A DNA stretch of 64,000 nt from Heterotrichella gracilis (taxonomy: Eukaryota > Sar > Xanthophyceae > Tribonematales > Xanthonemataceae), in NCBI GenBank assembly GCA_032358255.1, contig JAULBX010025386.1, positions 124,001-188,000 on the forward strand, read 5' to 3'. The stretch's first letter is position 1, and every line of letters begins with the position of its first letter. This document shows, piece by piece, positions 50,457 through 63,754 of this stretch. The notes beneath the pieces were generated by a model. That model saw only the letters and a program-made list of their open reading frames with translations. It made no database searches and was not told the origin of the DNA. Position numbers and translations under genes: made by a program.

Positions 50457-51153
50457 ATGGCAGAGCTCCAGCGTTTCATACTGAGGGCAGAGGTGCTCAA
50501 GCTGTACCGCTCGTTCATGCGAACAGCCAAGGGGGCACCGACCCAGGCACGAGGTAAGCGCCACGCGGGAATCTGGGCAGCAGAGATGCCCAAAGGCCGT
50601 CCCTAGCGCATCTGACCACCACAGGAGTGGGTGCACATCAAGGTGCACTAGCGTTAGTGAAGTATTCCAATAGAAAGCAAGTGGCCATCGTTGCCATGCC
50701 CACACGAAAACGCACTGTGTAGGGGTTGCATGCATGGGCAGCCGACAACCAGTCGTTTGCGCAATAAGGCAGGCACCTCATATGGGATACTCGTAGCTGT
50801 TTGTTTGTTCGTATTCGCCACCAACCTGTCTGTCTCTAGACTTAACCCTAAGCTACCTGGAACAGGTTGCACTAAGTTGTGCCCTTGTCTACCTGGAACA
50901 GGCGCCACTCGCCCCCAAATGCTTCTGCCAACCTTGCATAATAGCAGTTGTCACTGCATCACCAGCAACCTCTTCTTGAATGACACTCATCCCCGCACGC
51001 ACCTACCGCGCCACAGGAGAGCTGGTGAAGGAGGTGCGGCAGGAGTTTGACAAGTTCAGGCGCGCCCAGGACCTGTACGCCATCAAGTACCACCTGAGCG
51101 AGGGGCGCAACCGGCTGAAGCAGCTGCAGGAGATGCTGGGAATGCAGTATTGA
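50457..51153 (+). CDS. LYR-motif protein, LYRM2-like
   Basis: Two exons, 50457-50553 and 51017-51153, give 77 residues. The LYR signature sits in EVLKLYRSFMRTAK, followed by the family's second half ELVKEVRQEF and a terminal helix ending LKQLQEMLG. The start MAELQRFILRAEVLKLYR and short length match LYRM2 best; SDHAF1-like members are an alternative. LYR proteins are mitochondrial matrix adaptors that bind the acyl-carrier protein and help assemble respiratory complexes or iron-sulfur enzymes; LYRM2 is linked to complex I. The intron is 463 bases with GTAAGC and CACAG borders. The stop lies only 103 bases before the ATG of the wybutosine gene on the same strand, with no TGTAA between. Confidence 0.88.
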
Positions 51154-51256: not shown

Positions 51257-54200
51257 ATGTCGCTCGCCAGTTTCGATGCACGCAAAAGGCACATCATCCG
51301 GGGCTCGAATGCCAATGCAGGTACATTGAATGCGTGTTTGGATTTGGAGGCGCATTCACTTCCAAACCTAACCCATCCAAACCCTAAATCAAACCCTATA
51401 CATATCTTTTCCTTGGTGGCAGCCACTGCACGCACCTGCACGCGGCCGTAGGGAGCCAACCCTTCCACCCCTACCCCATCCCGTCCTTACACACACATGC
51501 ATAACCACCACCGCCGTAAAGTCTCCAAGCCATCCACGAGTGCGCACCCCGTGCGCAGGCGACAAGTCCCGCAAGGGCAGCGTTGACGCCCCCATCCTCA
51601 ACCTGGTGGATACCATCAACGCGCACCCGCACACCGTCACCGTCAGCTCATGTCCGGGCCGGGTGAGCGTGGTTGCCGATGCCTCCAAGGAGGTTCGGCG
51701 CCAGGACAAGAAGGGTGGGGAGTGGGTGTACGCCAGTCATGGCTTGGCGGACCCTGGCGAGGTGGTGGCGTGGGTGCAGGAGCGCATGTGCACAGGTGGG
51801 TGCAGGGGTGCGGTCTGTGGAGTTGCGGATGTAGTTGAATGGTGGAGAGAATGACATACGACACGGCATTTGCAGGGATCGCCATGTGCGCCCATTCCAC
51901 CTTCACTGCCTAACCCCTGTAGGGTCCAATTGTATTATAAGCCACCCACCCTCTGCACGCACACGTTGCGCTTCTTCCTAAGTGCTACCCATGGATTTGC
52001 ACCAGTATTATAGGCCCATGTCCCTAACCCCCAACCCTCTACCAATCTGCAGGGTCACGGCTGGTGCTGCGCTTTGAGCCCTTCATCCTGGCAGCGGAGT
52101 ACCGATCAGCCGAGGTTGCCTTCCAGCTGGTGCATGTGGCGCGCACAGCGGGGCTCAGGGAGTCTGGGGTGACGGGGCCCAAGCGCTACATTGCAGGTGG
52201 GTGGGCAGGGTGCTGTGTGCACATAAATACTATGGTAAGGTGGGAGCTAGGTTCAGTGTGTGCATAAATCATACGTGGCAGGTGGGGGGCCAGGATGCAG
52301 TGTGGGCATGAAGCATTACACTGCACATGGCTGGGAGCTGGGCTCTGGGAGTCTGGTGTATTTTGCCCAAGCGCTGCATTGCAGGATCGGGGCAGAGGGG
52401 CATGGCAGGCATCAGTCAGTGCAGATTTGTGATCAAACCCTAAACCCTAAGCATGGTACACACCGGGACCAATGCATTCCTCACAAGTGCCTGGCAAATG
52501 CATGGGAGGTGGCTTTGAACATGCCTGGTTGCTGATTTTGACATGTGTCGTGATACAGTGACATGTGCTATGATACACATCTGCATGTGGCTTCACACCA
52601 CCATTTTCCCCTGCAGGCATCAGGACATCGCTCCGCTTAGAGGTGCCTGTGGCAGAGGCGGGCCACCTGCTGGTTTCACCCGAGTACATCCACATCTTGG
52701 TGGCCATGGCAAATGACAAGATGGCTGCCAATTGGGCCAAGATCGAATGGTTCCACCAGCTGCTGCGTACCAGCCTGTCAGCCAACGGCATGCCGCCAAG
52801 TGGCGCTGCCAAGTGCGCGGACAATGACACGCTGCCATGTGGCGTTAGCAATGGCATGTTCAAAGGCGCGCTGCCAGGTGGCACTCCTGACAGCACGGAC
52901 AGCGCCAGGCCGCCAGGTGGCGCTGCAAATGGCACCCAAGTGGCTGCAAAGACTGCAAACACCACCAGCAGCAAACCAATTGGTAGTGTTGTGTCTACAG
53001 TGAAGGAAGAAGCTGCTAGTAATGCTCATTCACCAGGTGTGGCATCCTTAGAAGCTGCTGCGCACCAGCCTGTATTTGGAGCGCTTCTTGATGGTGCACA
53101 GCCCCAGCGGTCCATCCGCACTTCCAATGGGCGAGTGCGGACCACTTCAAGCGCCAGCACCACAGGAGGGAACCCGACTCCAGCCATTGGACAGCAGCAG
53201 CTGCCTGTCAAACGCCAGCCAGAGCAGCAAGGGGAGGATTTAGTGCATGGCAACAAGGGGAGGAAAGTCGGCAAGCTAGAGCGGCTGAGGCTGCGCCAAG
53301 TGGCAGTCTTTGAGCGCCTGGAGGCGCTGGAGGTGGCGGTGGCAGGGGCAGGGGAGGGTCTGGTGTGGCAGACGGTGCAGCCAGTGACCACAAAGGTAAG
53401 GGGGGCCGGGACTAAGGTTTAGGGTCGCAACTGTCAACCCTAAACCCACAGGGTGTGATGTGGCAGACGGTGCAGCTGTAACCAATCAGATAAGGGGTGG
53501 GGGTGTGTTGTCAGATACATTTCTGATTAGGCAGCAAGAATAGTGCAAAGTTCTGATGCACTCCACATGTATCAAAGCTGACCACTGCACCCTGGTGACT
53601 GCATGCACAATGCTTGCCGCGCTGTCAGCATAAGCTACAATGCTGCCCATTGCGCGCTGATATACCACAGCACCTTGTATATAGAAAACCCTTGGTGCCC
53701 ACTGCCCTAAACCCTCTTTCAATATTTTTGTGCAGGGTTCCGCTGACCACGCTGCGCTGCGTCGCTGGGGCCACTCCATGTGCACCGTGGGGAGCCGCCT
53801 GGTGGTGTTTGGAGGCTATGGAGGCAGTGATGCGCACTGCAGGCTCTCAGATGTGGTGCTGTTTGACACAGCAACCTACCACACGCAGAGGGTGGTGACC
53901 AAGGGTGGGTGCATTGTGACAGAGTCATAATGGGGATGGATGGGGGATGCACAAACTGGCTGTGACGGGGATTGGTGGTAGTTGTTTACTTCTATTACGA
54001 ACCTTTGTATTTCTAATGTGGTTGTCCTTCATTCCTCCTAGATGCCCTAGCCAGTGTCGCCTCGTCCCGTACAATCGGTGTTTTCAACGGTGATTGTTGC
54101 GCCGCACAGACAGTATCTTTTGTGAACGTTTGATCAAATGAGTGTCCCTACACAAAGCCACATTGGATGTTGGGAACGTTAATGGTGCAAAATGGCTCAA

Positions 54201-57200
54201 GTTCTTGCCCATGGCCATGTACGTGGGCAATTAAGAGTGGTTTGTGTGAAAGCGTGCAAGCTCCTCAGTGTAAAATGAGTAACAGCGCCACTTGGCATGC
54301 AGGACCCGGACCCTGCGCTAGGGTTAGCCATGCAGCAGTTGCCTTTGGCACCAGCCTGTTCATCATTGGTGGCCGCACCTCGCCCAGCACCCCACTGGGT
54401 GACACCTGGCACCTGAACGTGGATGCATGCAAGTGGCGGCAGTGCGCTACGCTGGCCGATGGGGCCTCGCTCCCCGCTCGTTACCGGCCCAGCGCTGTGG
54501 CTGTGGGTGAACATCTCAAGGTACAAAAACACACTTTCTTAATCTATGCATGGAAATACTTTGAACATATATTGAACTATAAAGTATATTCATGCTTGAT
54601 TGCCACTGGCGCCAGGGTGCACTGCGATGCCATGTCCCGAGAGTTGAAGTTTGCATCTGCACGCAGAATGGGCGCATCTTGGTGTTTGGTGGCTTCAACG
54701 GTGACTGCGCCTTGAATGACCTGTGGCAGCTTGATGTTGCAAGCTTGACGTGGCGCCAGCTGGAGCCATCGGGTATGTGCGCACCTTGCATGCATGCACG
54801 CATCTGTAAATATTATTACGAGCATTCCGACACAAACTTGGCGGCCAGATCAGCACCCATCTGTGAATATATATTGTCAGAAATTCAGCCCATGAAAAGC
54901 CCCTTTTCTTGGTGGTACCCATGGTTTCAGCGCAAGTGCATGCAAGGCCTTTCAATCAATGCTGTGACACCCCCTGCTGCGGTTTGCTCAGGTACACCCC
55001 CTGCGCCCCGCCATTCCCACGCCGCGGCAGTGATAGGCAACACCATGTTCATCTATGGAGGCTGCCAGGGCTATGGCCACGTCTTCAATGACCTCCACTG
55101 CCTGGATCTGGGATCGATGACGTGGCGCCAAGTGGCGGTGGGCGGCGACCCGCCCCTGCCGCTGTTCTCCCACAGCCTGTGTACACATGGGGCCCTGCTG
55201 GTGGCGGTCGGTGGATGCCCAAACCAGACCAGTGGTGCGCCGCGCATGTGGCATGACAGCTTGAAAATGCGCTGCACAAATGGGTGGTCCCCGCCCAGGG
55301 CGGCTCCATTTTGGAGTGTGACAGACTAATCCTCATCTTCCCCTGTCATGCATGTACCCTAAACCCTAAACAGTACATCCCCCCATAATATGCCGTTTGT
55401 CCGTCCATGCAACGCCGTTCATCGCCTGTTTGCACCCATGCAACCAACTCAAATGGGTACCCTCGCATATCACTCACCTTCGCTTTCCCCGTCCCCCTGC
55501 AGCCATACTCCAAGTGTTTGACCCGTCATGCGGCACCTGCACTCAAATGCCTGTGGCACCGCCACGTGGCAGCAAAGCAGGAGGGGTGCTTCTCGTGCGC
55601 CACACCGCTGCGGTGGTGCGCGGCAGGCTTTTGGTGATTGGCGGGGGCGCGTCCTGCTTCAGCTTTGGGACGGCTTTTGGAGCTCCCGCGATTGTGGACA
55701 TGGCGGGGGTTGAGGCGCAGCTTGTGGGTGGCGACGGCAGTGGAGCCCACCAGCTACAGTTGCCTGCGTGTCCCCAAAAGGACACATCCACATGGGGTGT
55801 GGCGCATCCATGCACTGCAGCCAGCATTGGTACTGGGGGCAAGGGGAGCATCATGAGTGCTGTGGGGGCAGTGGAAGGGGAGCAGCCATCTCAGGCAAAG
55901 ACAGCACCCAGCCCTGCAGTAAATGCAAGCGACACAGCTGCAACGTGTGTGCTGCAAGGCGGCGAGCTCCAAGCCACCTGTGATGCTGCCCTTTCGCCCA
56001 TCATTGCCAGCAGTACCGACAATGACGGGGAGAACAGTACCCAACAGACGTCCAGCGGTACCCACACCATGCTGGTTATCAGTGTCGCCACCACCTCAGC
56101 GAAAGCAGTCAAGGACCTCCTCAAGCAGCTGGGCTACCTCGACAAAACAGGCAAAGCACAGAAGCTTGAAGGTGGCCAAGCGGTGGCCCTGCCTGTACAT
56201 GCGCATACGGAGAGCGTGCTGAAAACCCTACTGGAAGGTTTTGACCCCTGCAGCGGCGACCCTTTGACAGGAGCCGGTGGAATGAGGGGCACTGGCGACG
56301 GGGTCAAGCCTGCGTTCAAACAAGCACGGGAGCAACTCGCGGATATCATCAACCTGGGAGCAACCACGCCCTCAGGCCTGTTGGGGCCAGTGGGGAGGGG
56401 TGCAAGGGTCAAGAGGGCCAAGGGGTTGGTGGCACATGGGGACACAGTAGCATTGCAGGCTCGGCTTGGGCCTCTGTTGCGTCAAGGCTGCTCGCTGCTT
56501 TGGCTGAGCGCTGGGCCCCGGCAGGCCAGTCCCAGGTTGTCTCCTCCTCAGCTGCTGCAGCAGGAGTTGAGGCTGCTTCTGGAACAGGAAGGTGCGTGTT
56601 GCCAATAACAGAGGGTGTTCCCCTTGGGTGGGTTTGTTGTCCATACACAGGCAGTTCTTTTGTGCTTAGTGCAGGTCCCAGGTCCAGGTGTGCATTGCAG
56701 GACTAGTGCATGTTGCAGCCTCAGTTGCCCATACTGCAAGGAGAGTCACAAACCCACACTCCCACGCCAGTGTGCAGTGAGTTTATGTATACACCAGTGT
56801 GGCTGCGTGCTTTTGTGAGCTGGCGGTCTGCAGCACCTGTTCATGCTCTTCGTGTGAACCGATACGCCTATCCACGCCCAGTACCACCATTACCGCAGGG
56901 ATTCCAGCTGCACGCATCGAGGAGCTCTTAAAAGATGCACCGGGCAAGTGGGAGCGGCTGGGCGACCATGCGCTCCTCCCTGCGGCTGCCTTGTCGTCGC
57001 CCGTGTGGGCCTGAGTGCCTACGGCATGGGATGTGGTCTGCGCATGCTTGGGCGTGCGCCGCCTCGCCCGCCAAGCGCCGGTAGCCAACACAGGTGCGCA
57101 ATAAAATAGGTGATTAGATTGTGTGTTTCTGGGCAATGGGGAAGGAATGTGCCAGGATCGGGTTGTCCTTCCTGAATACGTTGATAAACGGCGAAATAAG

Positions 57201-60200
57201 CCATTTTGGGCGCAGCTGCCCTTATAGCTCAGTGGTAGAGCGTTGGTCTTGTAATCAAGACGAACCATGCACTTGAATGAGTGCTCATGGAAACCAAAGG
57301 TCCGTGGTTCAATCCCGCGTGAGGGCAATGTTTTTGGCTTTTTTACCATTTAACCTTTTGCTTTTTGTCCTAAAATTCTTTGCTTTTCTTCAGCTTTTTC
57401 TTCCTGTCTTGTATGTGCGTAGAAACGAGCATGAATTCTGTTTGCACACACTGTCGCACGCGCAAACCAGCAGTGTTGAAATACCTGGGCAGACAGGCCA
57501 GCAATGAGCAGCAAAACAAAAAGCAAAACGTAGCGGGTGAACAGCGGGAAGGGGGAGGAAGCTGGTGCACTAGACATCCTAAACACTTCCCCACTGACTC
57601 CCCGAGGGCCAATGAGCCAAGGGCCCAAGAGGTGCACAGATTCCGACCTGTTGCATTGGGGACGCGGCATCACAGGGTCCAGGCACATTGGAGCTCCAAG
57701 TAGGATGCACCCACCAATATCAGGGGGTATGCTGGTCTATATAATAACACCTTCTCTGACACGCACCATTGCGGCAGGCACCTGTGACAAAATGGGGTAC
57801 AGAGTTTCGCTTTACGTTTCAGGATTTAAACATGGGTAGGGTTTAGGGTGGTAAATAGGGACAACAAGTTCAAAAGCAGTGTAAAACAACTGTAGGGTGG
57901 TACCATTGGGCTCTAAATCCTGCCAATCTCGCTCCCTCCCACAGGCACCCGAGACAGCCGTGCCCAGCTGCTAGTTGGTGACAGGGGGTGGGTGCATCAC
58001 AAGGAGAACGGGGTCAGCTTCAGCCTGGATGTGTGCCGCTGCATGTTTTCATCGGGCAATGTCATTGAGCGCATACGCATGGGGGCGGTGCAGTGCTGTG
58101 GGGAGACGGTAGTGGACCTGTTCTGTGGCATCGGGTATTATAGTGTGCCCATGCTGGTACATGGAGGTAGGTGGGAGGTTTTTTTAAGCTTTGGTGGACA
58201 ACTGCCTACTTGTGTGGTAGGCAGGGAGTGTCAAGTGGGATTCCAGCAGGGTGAAAATGTGTTTTTGTATACAACTTGGAGCCAGGCAACTTCCATAAGC
58301 TCTAATACACTATATGATGGTGGTTCTTACTAGTCCGTCTGCATGAATGCCTGCACCAAATTCAACTCCAGATACAAAAATAGTGCATGTCACTTATGCA
58401 ACAGCTCACGGGAAGAACCAGCGCCAGCAGTTTGTAGAGGCGAATCCTCTTTGCTGGCTCCTCTCCCTTGCTTTACAAGCCTGTTCAAGGATTCCTGCGC
58501 CATGTTTTCTTCTTCTTTTCCAGCATTTTATGAGAGGTGTTTGCTCTGTGTGATGCAACAGGTGCCAACAGGGTTTTTGCATGTGATTGGAACTCAAATG
58601 CATTGCATGCGCTGCAGCACAATCTCATGACCAATGGCGTAGCTGACAAATGTCATGTGCTGGAAGGAGACTGTCGAGTTAATGCCCCAAAGGTGTACTT
58701 TTTATCTTATATTTCCTGTTCTGTATGGGATGAATCTGCCCCAAATTTTGGGGCACAGCATTGGTTTTCTTACTGGCGGTGCCTGTAGGTCATTCCTACT
58801 ATAACTTCGTGTGTTTCATGCACATGGTCGCAAGCGCCTTTATCATCAATCAGGATTAGGGCTGCAAATCCACCACAATGTAATGGGATATACCATCTCA
58901 GAGTTTTGTAATCCAGTAAGAATGATGTATGATTTGCACATGTATGTATTCCTGCTGCAACTGCCAAAGCAGCACATGTACCAAGAGCAAGCCTGTCTCC
59001 TGGCGAATATACACATGTTTTAGCAGAATGCCCTCAAACTCATGCAGGAGTGCTGCACACCGCTTGAGAAAGCACAAGGGACAAATAAAAAGGACATTGG
59101 TACTTGACTATGTTTTATCTCCTCAACCTTATGTGGTTTTTGTGGTGCCCTGTTGCGAGCCTCTGGCCTCTAACCTCTGCCTTTGTGCATTCCCTTTCCT
59201 TCCGACTGTCTGGCAAGGGACTGGGCAATACCTTGCAATACCTTGATGGCTGTGAGGTAGAAGAGCAGATTATAATGCATGAGCAAGGTTTCACACGTAG
59301 TTCAAAAACAGCATGACCACATGGTGTCGCAGGGCGTTGCTGATCGGGTGCTTCTGGGCTTGTTGCCCTCCAGTGCCTGCGGGTGGAGCACAGCTGTGCG
59401 CGCGCTCAAGCCCACAGGGGGGGTGCTACACCTGCATGAAAACGTGGCGGATAAGGAGGAGGGCGATTGGGTGGCGCAGTGCTTGGAGGTGATTCAGTCG
59501 CTGGCGCGGAGCGAGGGGCGGCAATGGCATGTGCAGCTGCTGCATAAGGAGCGTGTCAAATGGTGGGTGAACAATTTTGTGGGCCAGCAAAATACGCAGT
59601 CTTTTTTCCGTTGTAAGGATTTTTCTAACACGTTACATGGCCACATTGGCCGTTTTAATGGAGTAAATGTTTTAAAGCGGCCGGGCTCGAGTCATTGCAA
59701 TGGCATTTTGTACATATTTCTTGACTGCCTTTTTTCCTTTTGAACAGAATGCGTCGTGGGCATATTCACTTCAGCTTCGATTGAATATTAAATCTGTTTG
59801 AATTAAAAAAAAAACTCCGTGCACAGGTATGCTCCCCATATCCGCCACATGGTACTCGACATCGCCTGCACCCCTGCCACCCAGCAGCTCACCAGCAGTG
59901 CAGCTGTCTGCACACCTCCAGCAACACCTAGTCAGCAAGCGCCACCTGTCAAAGTGGCAGCTATAGCCACAGCACATCTATACTCCCATGATACATCACG
60001 TAATGGAGTGGCAAAGAAGCACGCCAACATCAAATCAGCCACCAACATGAACAAAGCCATCAACAGCAACCCCATCACCATTGCACCAGCCAACATTTCT
60101 GGCCTAACCAGTGGAGCACCAGCAAACAACAATACCACCACCAACGGCACTGCCACCACCACCGCCCGTAGCAGTAAACTGCCCACTGCCCCTCTTAATG

Positions 60201-62072
60201 AAAATGATGACCTGCTCGCCACACGCACCCTATGCCCAGTGTTGAGCAATGAGGCAGGGTTTGAGTGTACTCCTAGCTGGCTCCGGGATGGCGTTCAAGT
60301 GATCGATGGACCGATCACTTTTGATCACTTCCAGCGTGTCATCAGCCCAGGCCGGCTCCCTGTTATCATGAGAGGTGCGCTCACTCTTTGAGGATATTTC
60401 TTCTTATCTACTGAAACACAGAACCACCATGGAACGCAAGTGCAATAGAGGACTGCCAGCATCACTGGTGTTACCACCATGATTTGCATACTAAACCCAG
60501 AATGGCCGAGTAAGTCTGATAAAGAAAATGGCCAACATACTGGGCAAATCAAGATCACCATCCAGCTATTTCTACTAGAATGGAGGATGTAGCTAATATC
60601 ACCCTTATGCACGCAGGAATGAACCTGGGACCCTGTGTCGCCAAATGGTCCCCAGAGTACCTGGCCACTGCCCCTGCCCTTGCCGGCACCACCGTCAGTG
60701 CGCATGTGTGCTCAGACCCACATGGCCGCATGGATTTCGTGCACAAGAACTTTGTGTTCAAGACAATGCGCTTCGTTGAGCTTGTGGGCAGGGCAGCGCG
60801 GCTCCCACAGTGGCGTGATGCGCCCCCCTTGGTGGCGCAGGCGAGAGGTGCGTGCATGCTAGTGGGTGCGGGGGTATGTATTTCTCATGTGCTGTGAATC
60901 ATGTACTTACTGCTTGATCGGTGCTTACATGCTCATATGCTGTGAAATTATCAGTGCTGTGATAATGTCCAGCATGGTGACTTTGGGCTCCACTACTGGC
61001 AACATGTTCTGCAGACTGCCCACAAAATGGTTGCGTTAGGCTGAATTCCAGGCATCATTGCCACCCACCCCACGCAACCCTCTCACACATTTTCCATCAC
61101 CACCCACCCACCCACCACCACACCCACAGCTACTACCTGCGCAGCGTGGGGACCAACCCCCGCAAGGAGCCATCTGAGCTATCAGCAACCTTCCCCAGCC
61201 TAGCTGCCGACATTGCCATACCACAGCTGTTCCCACCTGGCCGCCAGTTCTCAACAGTGCTGCGCACCGCCTCGCCTGGCCTGCGTCTGTGGACACACTA
61301 TGACATGATGGACAACATGCTGATGCAAGTGCGGGGGAGCAAGCGCGTGCGGCTGTGGGCGCCGTGTGAGGTGAGGGGCGGGGCCGGGTGGAAATGGGGA
61401 GTGCGTGACTGAGTGTAGGGGTAGGCACCAGGCTGATTGGCACCCCTTACTATTCGAGAAGAGGCCATGATCGAGGCGGGATTGATCAGATCACCTGGCG
61501 AGTAGTACTGCCGTTGCTGCTCCCACCGCAATGATGACAGACATAATGGTTATGGAATGTCCTGCCTGTCGTGGTGGTCTCATTCGTATGGATATCAATG
61601 TGGTGCACCATGTAAACTCTTTGTAAGGAAATTTGTGCAGTGCTCATGCGATGTAAATGCTCATGGCCTGTGCTGGTGTTACCCACAGGAGTCCAAGCTG
61701 TATGTTTCTGGTTCATCCTCCGCCGTCACAGACATTGACAAACCAGACCAAGCCCAATTCCCCTTGTTCCAGTCAGCACGCAGCGTGGACTGCCTGCTCC
61801 ACCCCGGGGACATCCTTTTCATCCCCTCCTTATGGTACCATAATGTACTCTCCCTGGACTTCAGCATCTCAGTGAATGTGTTCTGGAAGCACCTGCCTGA
61901 GGATGTGTATGAGGGGAAGGATTTGTATGGCAACAAGGATCTTGCACCAGCTAATCGTGCTGCGGACCTTGCTGGTAAGGTTGCGGATGAGTTGAGGAAG
62001 CTTCCAGAGGGGCACTACAGAGGGTTTTATGCGGACAGGGTGCTGCGGGGTATTCAAGAGCGCATACGTTGA
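51257..62072 (+). CDS. Wybutosine-synthesis fusion: TYW3-Kelch-TYW2-JmjC (TYW5-like)
   Basis: Seventeen exons keep phase: 51257-51320, 51559-51795, 52053-52196, 52617-53395, 53736-53904, 54303-54520, 54667-54772, 54992-55234, 55503-56591, 56899-57093, 57945-58166, 58562-58692, 59333-59562, 59827-60374, 60617-60851, 61130-61370, 61689-62072; 1745 codons with the stop. Residues 1-200 are TYW3 (FDARK, DKSRKGSVDAPI, SSCPGR). Residues 410-800 are Kelch blades (VVFGGYGGSD, FIYGGCQGYG, GGGASCFSFGTAFG). Residues 850-1285 are TYW2 with SAM motifs VVDLFCGIGYY and FACDWNSNALHAL, then GVADRVLLGLLPSS. After an Asn/Thr/Ala linker, about 1410-1744 is JmjC with iron ligands THYD (H1593, D1595) and LWYHNV (H1668), spaced as in human TYW5. 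TYW2 and TYW3 build wybutosine on tRNA-Phe G37; TYW5 hydroxylates yW-72. TYW4's methyltransferase is absent. An in-frame TGA (57012-57014, codon 1055) interrupts TYW2. Confidence 0.88.
52340..52391 (+). repeat. Intronic copy of a TYW3-domain exon end
   Basis: Bases 52343-52391 repeat the end of the exon 52053-52196 (gggagtctgg, then cccaagcgctgcattgcag against cccaagcgctacattgcag). The GT of the donor has become GA in the copy, so it should not be used. A similar short echo lies near 52265-52295. A further copy of an exon edge is in the next intron at 53452-53477, echoing 53358-53384. Confidence 0.8.
57218..57327 (+). tRNA. tRNA-Thr (UGU) with a 38-base intron
   Basis: After removing about 57254-57291, the RNA folds as a full cloverleaf of 72 bases. 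The acceptor stem gccctta pairs with tgagggc, the D arm is gctcagtggtagagc, the anticodon stem ttggt pairs with accaa around the loop cttgtaa, and the T arm cgtgg-ttcaatc-ccgcg is complete. The anticodon is TGT. The intron sits at the canonical position after the base 3' of the anticodon. The gene lies inside the tenth intron of the wybutosine gene, on the same strand. Confidence 0.95.
57331..57344 (+). terminator. RNA polymerase III terminator of the tRNA-Thr gene
   Basis: A run of five T (57331-57335) and a run of six T (57339-57344) follow the tRNA 3' end within 20 bases. Such T runs end pol III transcription. Confidence 0.85.
59142..59210 (+). repeat. Dispersed repeat, copy 3 (diverged)
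   Basis: The stretch reads tggtgccctgttgcgagcc, then taacctctgcctttgtgc and a T/C-rich end. It aligns with copies 1 and 2 but is more diverged. It lies in an intron of the wybutosine gene. Confidence 0.6.
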
Positions 62073-63224: not shown

Positions 63225-63696
63225 GTGCGCGCACAACGGCTGTCTTCCGGCAGGAGGTGCGTGAGGGTGACTGCTTCTGCAGCTTCAGCAGCAGGAGATG
63301 CTCCGGTGAGTCTTGTTGCTTTCACATTCAGGAGCAGACATGCCACAAGCACTCAGTGCATCCATGCGATGTCTACCTCGCTTGTCTCGGGTGGCGTCAA
63401 CGGGCCATCAACTGTGCAGGGAGCCAGAATGATCTGTAGGGTTTGCAAATTACTAGCACTCGCTGGTGCTAGGTTATTTATCTGAAAACCAGTTGTGGTG
63501 GTGTATGCCGCTTGCTTGCCAAGCTTAACCCTAAAACCCTAACCGCAAGTTGGGTGTGCAGAGTGAGCAGAGTACTGCACAGAAGGTGGTGGCCTTCCAG
63601 TCAGCTTTCTGGAAGTTCCTGCGGCCGCACACCATCCGTGGAACCATCCTTGGGGCCTCCGCTGTCACCGCCAAGGCGCTGCTGGAGAACCCACAG
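63225..63696 (+). CDS. Homogentisate solanesyltransferase-like prenyltransferase, partial at both ends
   Basis: Two exons, 63225-63305 and 63562-63696, join in phase. The first reads as a plastid transit peptide ([18 protein letters not shown]). The second gives [20 protein letters not shown] and ends AKALLENPQ, the start of the UbiA prenyltransferase domain. The [10 protein letters not shown] form matches homogentisate solanesyltransferase, which makes the plastoquinone-9 precursor in plastid membranes, better than homogentisate phytyltransferase (RPHTxIGT). The Asp-rich catalytic motifs lie beyond the window. The true start codon lies upstream and was not fixed. Confidence 0.85.
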
Positions 63697-63754
63697 GTGG
63701 GGTTTAGGGTTTAGAGTAACTTTGCACAGCTGACAATGTGTCGAACGGGGCAAG

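Follow-up and report, generated by a model that had tools for sequence, protein, structure and literature searches.

As outlined in the excerpted sections of two earlier papers, TYW2 forms the wybutosine (yW) intermediate yW-86, methylation by TYW3 converts it to yW-72, TYW5 adds a hydroxyl group to yW-72 and the side chain is finished by TYW4 (PMC7694415, PMC4682802). A TYW5-like JmjC extension of TYW4 has been published for Trypanosoma brucei, in comparison with Aspergillus oryzae, and hydroxywybutosine (OHyW) was detected in T. brucei, with JmjC fused to TYW4 (PMC4417183, as excerpted); this supports the view that fused JmjC domains act as hydroxylases. For Arabidopsis, the list in the excerpted part of PMC2956550 holds only At1g75200 (Tyw1) and At4g04670 (Tyw3+Tyw4c+Tyw2); the same part cites a report of wybutosine in wheat and describes wybutosine derivatives as undetected in that study's own analysis. 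Here we analyze a predicted four-part gene of this pathway in a 64,000-nucleotide stretch of Heterotrichella gracilis DNA, hereafter the window (GenBank assembly GCA_032358255.1, contig JAULBX010025386.1, positions 124,001 to 188,000, forward strand). A first-pass annotation of the window, made from its sequence alone, described the gene as a TYW3-Kelch-TYW2 fusion extended by a TYW5-like JmjC domain, and took TYW5 to be known as a separate animal enzyme. The published TYW4-TYW5 fusions (PMC4417183, as excerpted) show that this description is incomplete. No paper describing a TYW2/3-TYW5 fusion was found in a literature search that covered subscription journals thinly.

The gene comprises 17 exons on the forward strand (51257-62072), encoding 1744 codons and a stop. 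Its 16 introns range from 146 to 851 bases, all are bounded by GT-AG and their phases are consistent throughout. The donor at 60847 was tried for exon 15 and rejected, as it breaks the frame at the exon 15/16 junction; 60851|GT keeps the frame with canonical sites. The parts follow one another in the order TYW3, Kelch propeller, TYW2 and JmjC. Pfam matches on the spliced protein place TYW3 at residues 9-199 (5.1e-47), Kelch at about 420-701, TYW2_N_2 at 1024-1095, the TRM5-TYW2 transferase domain at 1100-1242 (1.6e-31) and Cupin_8, which corresponds to the JmjC domain, at 1446-1687 (3.4e-36). The first-pass annotation had all 17 exons joining as one frame; the splice sites and phases hold, and an in-frame TGA at codon 1055 was missed (see below). 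Its observation that TYW2 and JmjC meet within a single exon is borne out. In exon 14, one open frame runs from the TYW2 C-terminus (VKW followed by YAPHIRHMVLDIAC) through about 140 residues of low-complexity linker into the first part of JmjC (VQVIDGPITFDHFQRVIS). Since this exon alone spans both ends and the linker, the junction is independent of any guessed splice. The exon runs for 182 codons without a stop, for which the chance is about 0.002 at its base composition.

Comparison with solved structures assigns the JmjC part clearly: human TYW5 (3al5) matches at 1.7e-84 and the next structure, KDM8, at 4.5e-22. The candidate iron site (H1593, D1595 and H1668) and the candidate 2-oxoglutarate (2OG) lysine K1608 are intact in the alignment, roles that we presume from general knowledge of the family. 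The first histidine, the aspartate and the lysine are kept in all 53 aligned rows and the distal histidine in 52, the remaining row having a gap. Residues of the YYLRS, PRK and YGN motifs are common to the window JmjC and human TYW5. A quick tree of the 53 rows grouped the window with green sequences. A more careful tree was built from 45 rows after eight of the 53 had been removed: KDM8 and seven that were long or divergent, P0024 with its long branch among them. In this tree of TYW5 and TYW4-fused JmjC sequences, ten green rows including the window lie on one side of a branch with support 96/98, and the separate TYW5 sequences form a branch of their own with support 100/98. An approximately unbiased (AU) test did not reject a single clade of the green rows and 11 three-part cluster proteins (p 0.48). 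On these comparisons the JmjC part is placed in the TYW5 family, with the TYW5 and TYW4-fused JmjC domains and apart from KDM8/JMJD5, and the proposed TYW5-like extension of TYW3-Kelch-TYW2, in one frame across the linker, is supported.

The remaining parts are also recognizable. The structure nearest to the TYW2 part is PH0793 (3k6r, 3e-32), ahead of Trm5b (1e-16). Among NCBIfam models Taw2 is best, at 131 bits against a cut-off of 550 bits for what is an archaeal model. At the place of NLP in Trm5b the part has LGLLPSS, a difference that we take to discriminate TYW2 from TRM5. The TYW3 part matches PF02676 at 160 bits (cut-off 27) and, among solved structures, is nearest to AF2059 (9.8e-17); its match to the NCBIfam model Taw3 is below cut-off. 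The Kelch part was also compared as a possible TYW4 remnant: the Kelch of TYW4 (2zw9) matches it at 4e-7 and ranks well behind other Kelch proteins, the best of which reaches 1.9e-36. No Pfam match to the LCM domain (PF04072) was found in the fusion protein.

With the JmjC part as query, a search of 5.8 billion proteins that was confined to long ones gave 29 matches. A total of 156 proteins were then sorted by local BLAST: these 29, 116 new ones from 120 listed among 267 matches, and 11 chosen from 95. The full order TYW3-Kelch-TYW2-JmjC occurs in four of them, three from Coccomyxa (P0001, P0002 and P0126) and one from Bryopsis (P0004), and TYW3-TYW2-JmjC without Kelch in 17, from Mesostigma (P0006) and 16 clusters (P0008-P0023; sources ena, lgn and jgi). 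Three proteins (P0003, P0005 and P0163, the last from Edaphochlamys) have Kelch-TYW2-JmjC with TYW3 undetected; these are perhaps truncated models or cases of split TYW3. Another 114 have TYW3-Kelch-TYW2 and lack JmjC, six have Kelch-JmjC, all with PF04072 and hence TYW4-like, and 12 have JmjC alone. Land-plant relatives were without JmjC among the 120 of 267 matches listed. The nearest relatives of the fusion gene are from Trebouxia and Coccomyxa, from which its source would be a green alga, probably a trebouxiophyte. Trebouxia P0125 and P0127 have the TYW3-Kelch-TYW2 arrangement and stop some 12 residues past TYW2, and their missing JmjC may reflect loss or a cut annotation. Among the 95 matches from which the 11 were chosen, named separate TYW5 proteins are mostly animal. 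Because four-part and three-part proteins recur in Coccomyxa, Bryopsis and Mesostigma, the fusion, as judged from these database entries, is a feature of several green algae. The proteome search proposed in the first-pass annotation, for TYW3, TYW2 and JmjC together, thus recovered such proteins from further green algae, so that this alga is not alone in having the fusion.

The assembly comprises 903 contigs and was matched exon by exon, so that absence of a match is not proof of absence. A TYW1 match was found at C581, and tRNA-Phe(GAA) genes with G37 are present at two loci. The three TYW3 matches are all exons of the fusion gene. No second TYW2 was found, as the seven fetched of nine other PF02475 matches had no TYW2 match at 1e-3. 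The two best other JmjC matches, at C118 and C110, are of JMJD5 type (2.6e-37 and 1.8e-27, versus 5.3e-13 and 2.8e-12 to TYW5), and the weakest, at C10, reached 2.3e-4. The JMJD5/KDM8-type genes lie at C118:49296-49586 and C110:52877-53314, and a TAG was counted within the former match. An LCM scan gave 12 matches, of which eight loci were fetched and compared with five TYW4 proteins. Of these, C192 alone gave clear matches, and it was also the only place matched by the TYW4 LCM query. It was rejected as TYW4: it is LCMT1 (3iei 1.7e-49, versus 6.3e-19 for TYW4 2zw9), and a Kelch scan of C192:66000-75999 gave nothing below E 0.15. Within these limits no LCM-type TYW4 was found in the assembly, in agreement with the first-pass statement that the TYW4 methyltransferase is missing.

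From these data we infer that the gene probably encodes a multifunctional wybutosine enzyme for the TYW2, TYW3 and TYW5-type JmjC reactions, a reading we hold with considerable confidence. At G37 of tRNA-Phe, the TYW2 part would furnish 4-demethylwyosine with its aminocarboxypropyl side chain; methylation of the tricyclic ring by the TYW3 part would give yW-72, which the C-terminal JmjC part would hydroxylate with Fe(II), 2-oxoglutarate and O2. A scaffolding or RNA-binding role is probable for the Kelch propeller, and the fusion may pass the same tRNA from site to site. Because no LCM-type TYW4 was found, the predicted product is undermodified hydroxywybutosine, unless another enzyme finishes the side chain. 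Caution is due on two counts: the assembly is in many pieces, and wybutosine has been reported in wheat even though the Arabidopsis list of PMC2956550 holds only the Tyw1 and Tyw3+Tyw4c+Tyw2 genes.

Several observations must be set against this reading. The TYW2 frame is interrupted by the TGA at codon 1055, in its N-terminal domain; if this stop is genuine and fixed, the protein would be cut short within TYW2. Unique changes in TYW2 number 32 in the window and 22 in Coccomyxa sp. Obi (chi2 1.85), and 34 in the window and 20 in Trebouxia (chi2 3.63). Of otherwise invariant JmjC columns the window breaks 3 of 65, versus 0-1 in Coccomyxa, a figure tempered by 7 of 69 in both Bryopsis and Edaphochlamys. 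The TYW3 motif reads SSCPGR, versus SSC[SA]GR in the relatives that cover the site, 15 out of 18. In the quick tree the TYW4-fused P0024 fell among green rows, and a clade of the window JmjC with separate TYW5 was at the edge of rejection in the AU test (p 0.052).

The TGA lies between ...LSSPVWA and VPTAWDVVC...RLARQAPVANTG, in a loop that varies in length and sequence among 13 aligned relatives; conserved sequence flanks it, KWERLGD on the upstream side and RLARQAPVANTGTRDS on the downstream side. Splices around the TGA were sought from 41 GT or GC donors of exon 10, each paired with an acceptor further along the same exon or spliced straight to exon 11. None gave a GT-AG splice avoiding the TGA. 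All 12 stop-free combinations use GC donors and remove conserved TYW2 N-terminal residues; the least disruptive has a 54-base GC-AG intron (56962-57015). Selenocysteine was rejected as a reading of the codon: no selenocysteine insertion sequence was found in the window, a tRNA being the only Rfam match at the gathering threshold, and none of the 13 relatives has cysteine at the loop. As a background for stops, 2 of 150 scored WD40 matches (from 423 candidates) hold stops, three in all; intron read-through cannot be distinguished there from errors.

A recent pseudogene or null allele, from which TYW3-Kelch may still be made and TYW2 and JmjC not, would account for the TGA and for the failure to splice around it by GT-AG, and neither exon 10 nor 59333-60850 was found a second time in the assembly, nor was a second TYW2. 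Against this, the 689 codons that follow the TGA contain no further stop or frameshift, versus about 14 stops expected by composition, and the catalytic residues are intact. The window was compared in relative rate with Coccomyxa sp. Obi, using Bryopsis as outgroup, and for TYW2 also with Trebouxia. JmjC shows 29 unique changes each in the window and in Coccomyxa sp. Obi, and rates are not significantly raised relative to Coccomyxa. An old pseudogene was rejected, since rates after the TGA are not clearly raised; a recent nonsense change would leave no trace in rates or later stops. We consider a null allele unlikely. Because rates are not clearly raised and no later stop is present, the TGA is probably a recent change, an allele or an assembly error.

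It is also conceivable, though we think it very improbable, that the JmjC part acts on a substrate other than yW-72, such as a protein or another tRNA base. JmjC oxygenases as a class have many substrates, but TYW5 is by far the best match here, the motifs in common with human TYW5 argue for the same substrate, and fusion to yW enzymes has occurred repeatedly, with TYW2/TYW3 here and TYW4 elsewhere. Finally, two genes, TYW3-Kelch ending at the TGA and TYW2-JmjC starting downstream with a tRNA gene between them, are suggested by the position of the TGA just before the 851-base intron 10 that holds a tRNA-Thr gene, but are scarcely credible given that the N-terminal domain of TYW2 extends across the TGA and into exon 11, that the first methionine past it is well inside exon 11 (CRCMFSS) and that relatives carry the parts as one protein.

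With a multifunctional enzyme of this kind, the range of TYW5-type hydroxylases, which are most familiar from animals, would reach into the green lineage. A single chain would hold the enzymes for three successive steps on the same nucleotide, opening substrate channelling in tRNA modification to study. Such an enzyme predicts that hydroxylated wybutosine is present in green algae and absent from land plants, and it makes more pressing the question of which enzyme takes the TYW4 step where a recognized LCM-type TYW4 is lacking. More tentatively, and with less than even confidence, we suggest that a single-chain TYW3-TYW2-JmjC enzyme was ancestral to green plants and made hydroxylated wybutosine, the hydroxylase having been lost in land plants and perhaps in Trebouxia. 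If they are without LCM-type TYW4, green algae might end at OHyW-72 with a free carboxyl, or might recruit an enzyme such as LCMT1, with Kelch provided in trans from the fusion.

Coordinates of the exons and of the features within them or their introns are collected in Table 1. The tRNA-Thr(TGT) gene in intron 10, shortly after the exon with the TGA, is missed by ARAGORN run without intron mode. A gene of the LYR family (Complex1_LYR, 1.1e-13; spliced by eye) lies at about 50458-51153 on the same strand, its end some 100 bases before the start codon of the fusion. A fragment at about 63560-63700 presumably resembles homogentisate prenyltransferases; Pfam gave no match on its 44 residues.

Table 1. 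Exons of the fusion gene and associated features, in window coordinates
Feature	Position	Strand	Content	Basis
Exon 1	51257..51320	+	residues 1-22, start codon, TYW3 N-terminus	splice model, Pfam
Exon 2	51559..51795	+	TYW3 (SSCPGR, WVYASHG)	splice model, Pfam
Exon 3	52053..52196	+	TYW3 (LRFEPFIL)	splice model, Pfam
Exon 4	52617..53395	+	TYW3 C-terminus, then low-complexity linker 1	splice model, Pfam
Exon 5	53736..53904	+	Kelch propeller	splice model, Pfam
Exon 6	54303..54520	+	Kelch	splice model, Pfam
Exon 7	54667..54772	+	Kelch	splice model, Pfam
Exon 8	54992..55234	+	Kelch	splice model, Pfam
Exon 9	55503..56591	+	Kelch end, linker, start of TYW2 N-terminal region	splice model, Pfam
Exon 10	56899..57093	+	TYW2 N-terminal domain (KWERLGD...RLARQAPVANTG), holds in-frame TGA	splice model, Pfam
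In-frame TGA	57012..57014	+	codon 1055, exon 10	
tRNA-Thr(TGT) gene with own intron	57218..57327	+	inside intron 10, sense to fusion gene	Rfam RF00005 57.6 bits, ARAGORN intron mode
Exon 11	57945..58166	+	TYW2 transferase domain (VVDLFCGIGYY)	splice model, Pfam
Exon 12	58562..58692	+	TYW2	splice model, Pfam
Exon 13	59333..59562	+	TYW2 (ADRVLLGLLPSS, LHLHENV)	splice model, Pfam
Exon 14	59827..60374	+	TYW2 C-terminus, low-complexity linker 2, JmjC start	splice model
Exon 15	60617..60851	+	JmjC/TYW5	splice model, structure-sequence match
Exon 16	61130..61370	+	JmjC/TYW5 (YYLRSVGTNPRK; H1593, D1595, K1608)	splice model, alignment
Exon 17	61689..62072	+	JmjC/TYW5 (H1668; DLYGNKD), stop codon	splice model, alignment

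The gene can be compared with several known systems. Human TYW5 (3al5) resembles the window JmjC over about 300 residues, in the iron and 2OG residues and in the flanking motifs, but is a separate protein (solved chain 338 residues). The T. brucei/A. oryzae fusion is likewise a yW enzyme that terminates in a TYW5-type JmjC, with TYW4 in place of TYW3/TYW2 (PMC4417183, as excerpted). Planoprotostelium P0007 also ends a yW enzyme with a TYW5-type JmjC and includes Kelch, again with TYW4 instead of TYW3/TYW2. Conversely, the land-plant TYW2/3/4 proteins of the Arabidopsis At4g04670 type have the TYW3-Kelch-TYW2 arrangement of the window and, among the matches listed, no JmjC. Coccomyxa sp. Obi P0001 differs in its linkers and in that the listed protein has no internal stop, but has the same order, TYW3-Kelch-TYW2-JmjC, with identities of 54, 39, 59 and 54 percent, respectively, and carries the NCBI name 'probable tRNA wybutosine-synthesizing protein 5 at C-terminar half'.

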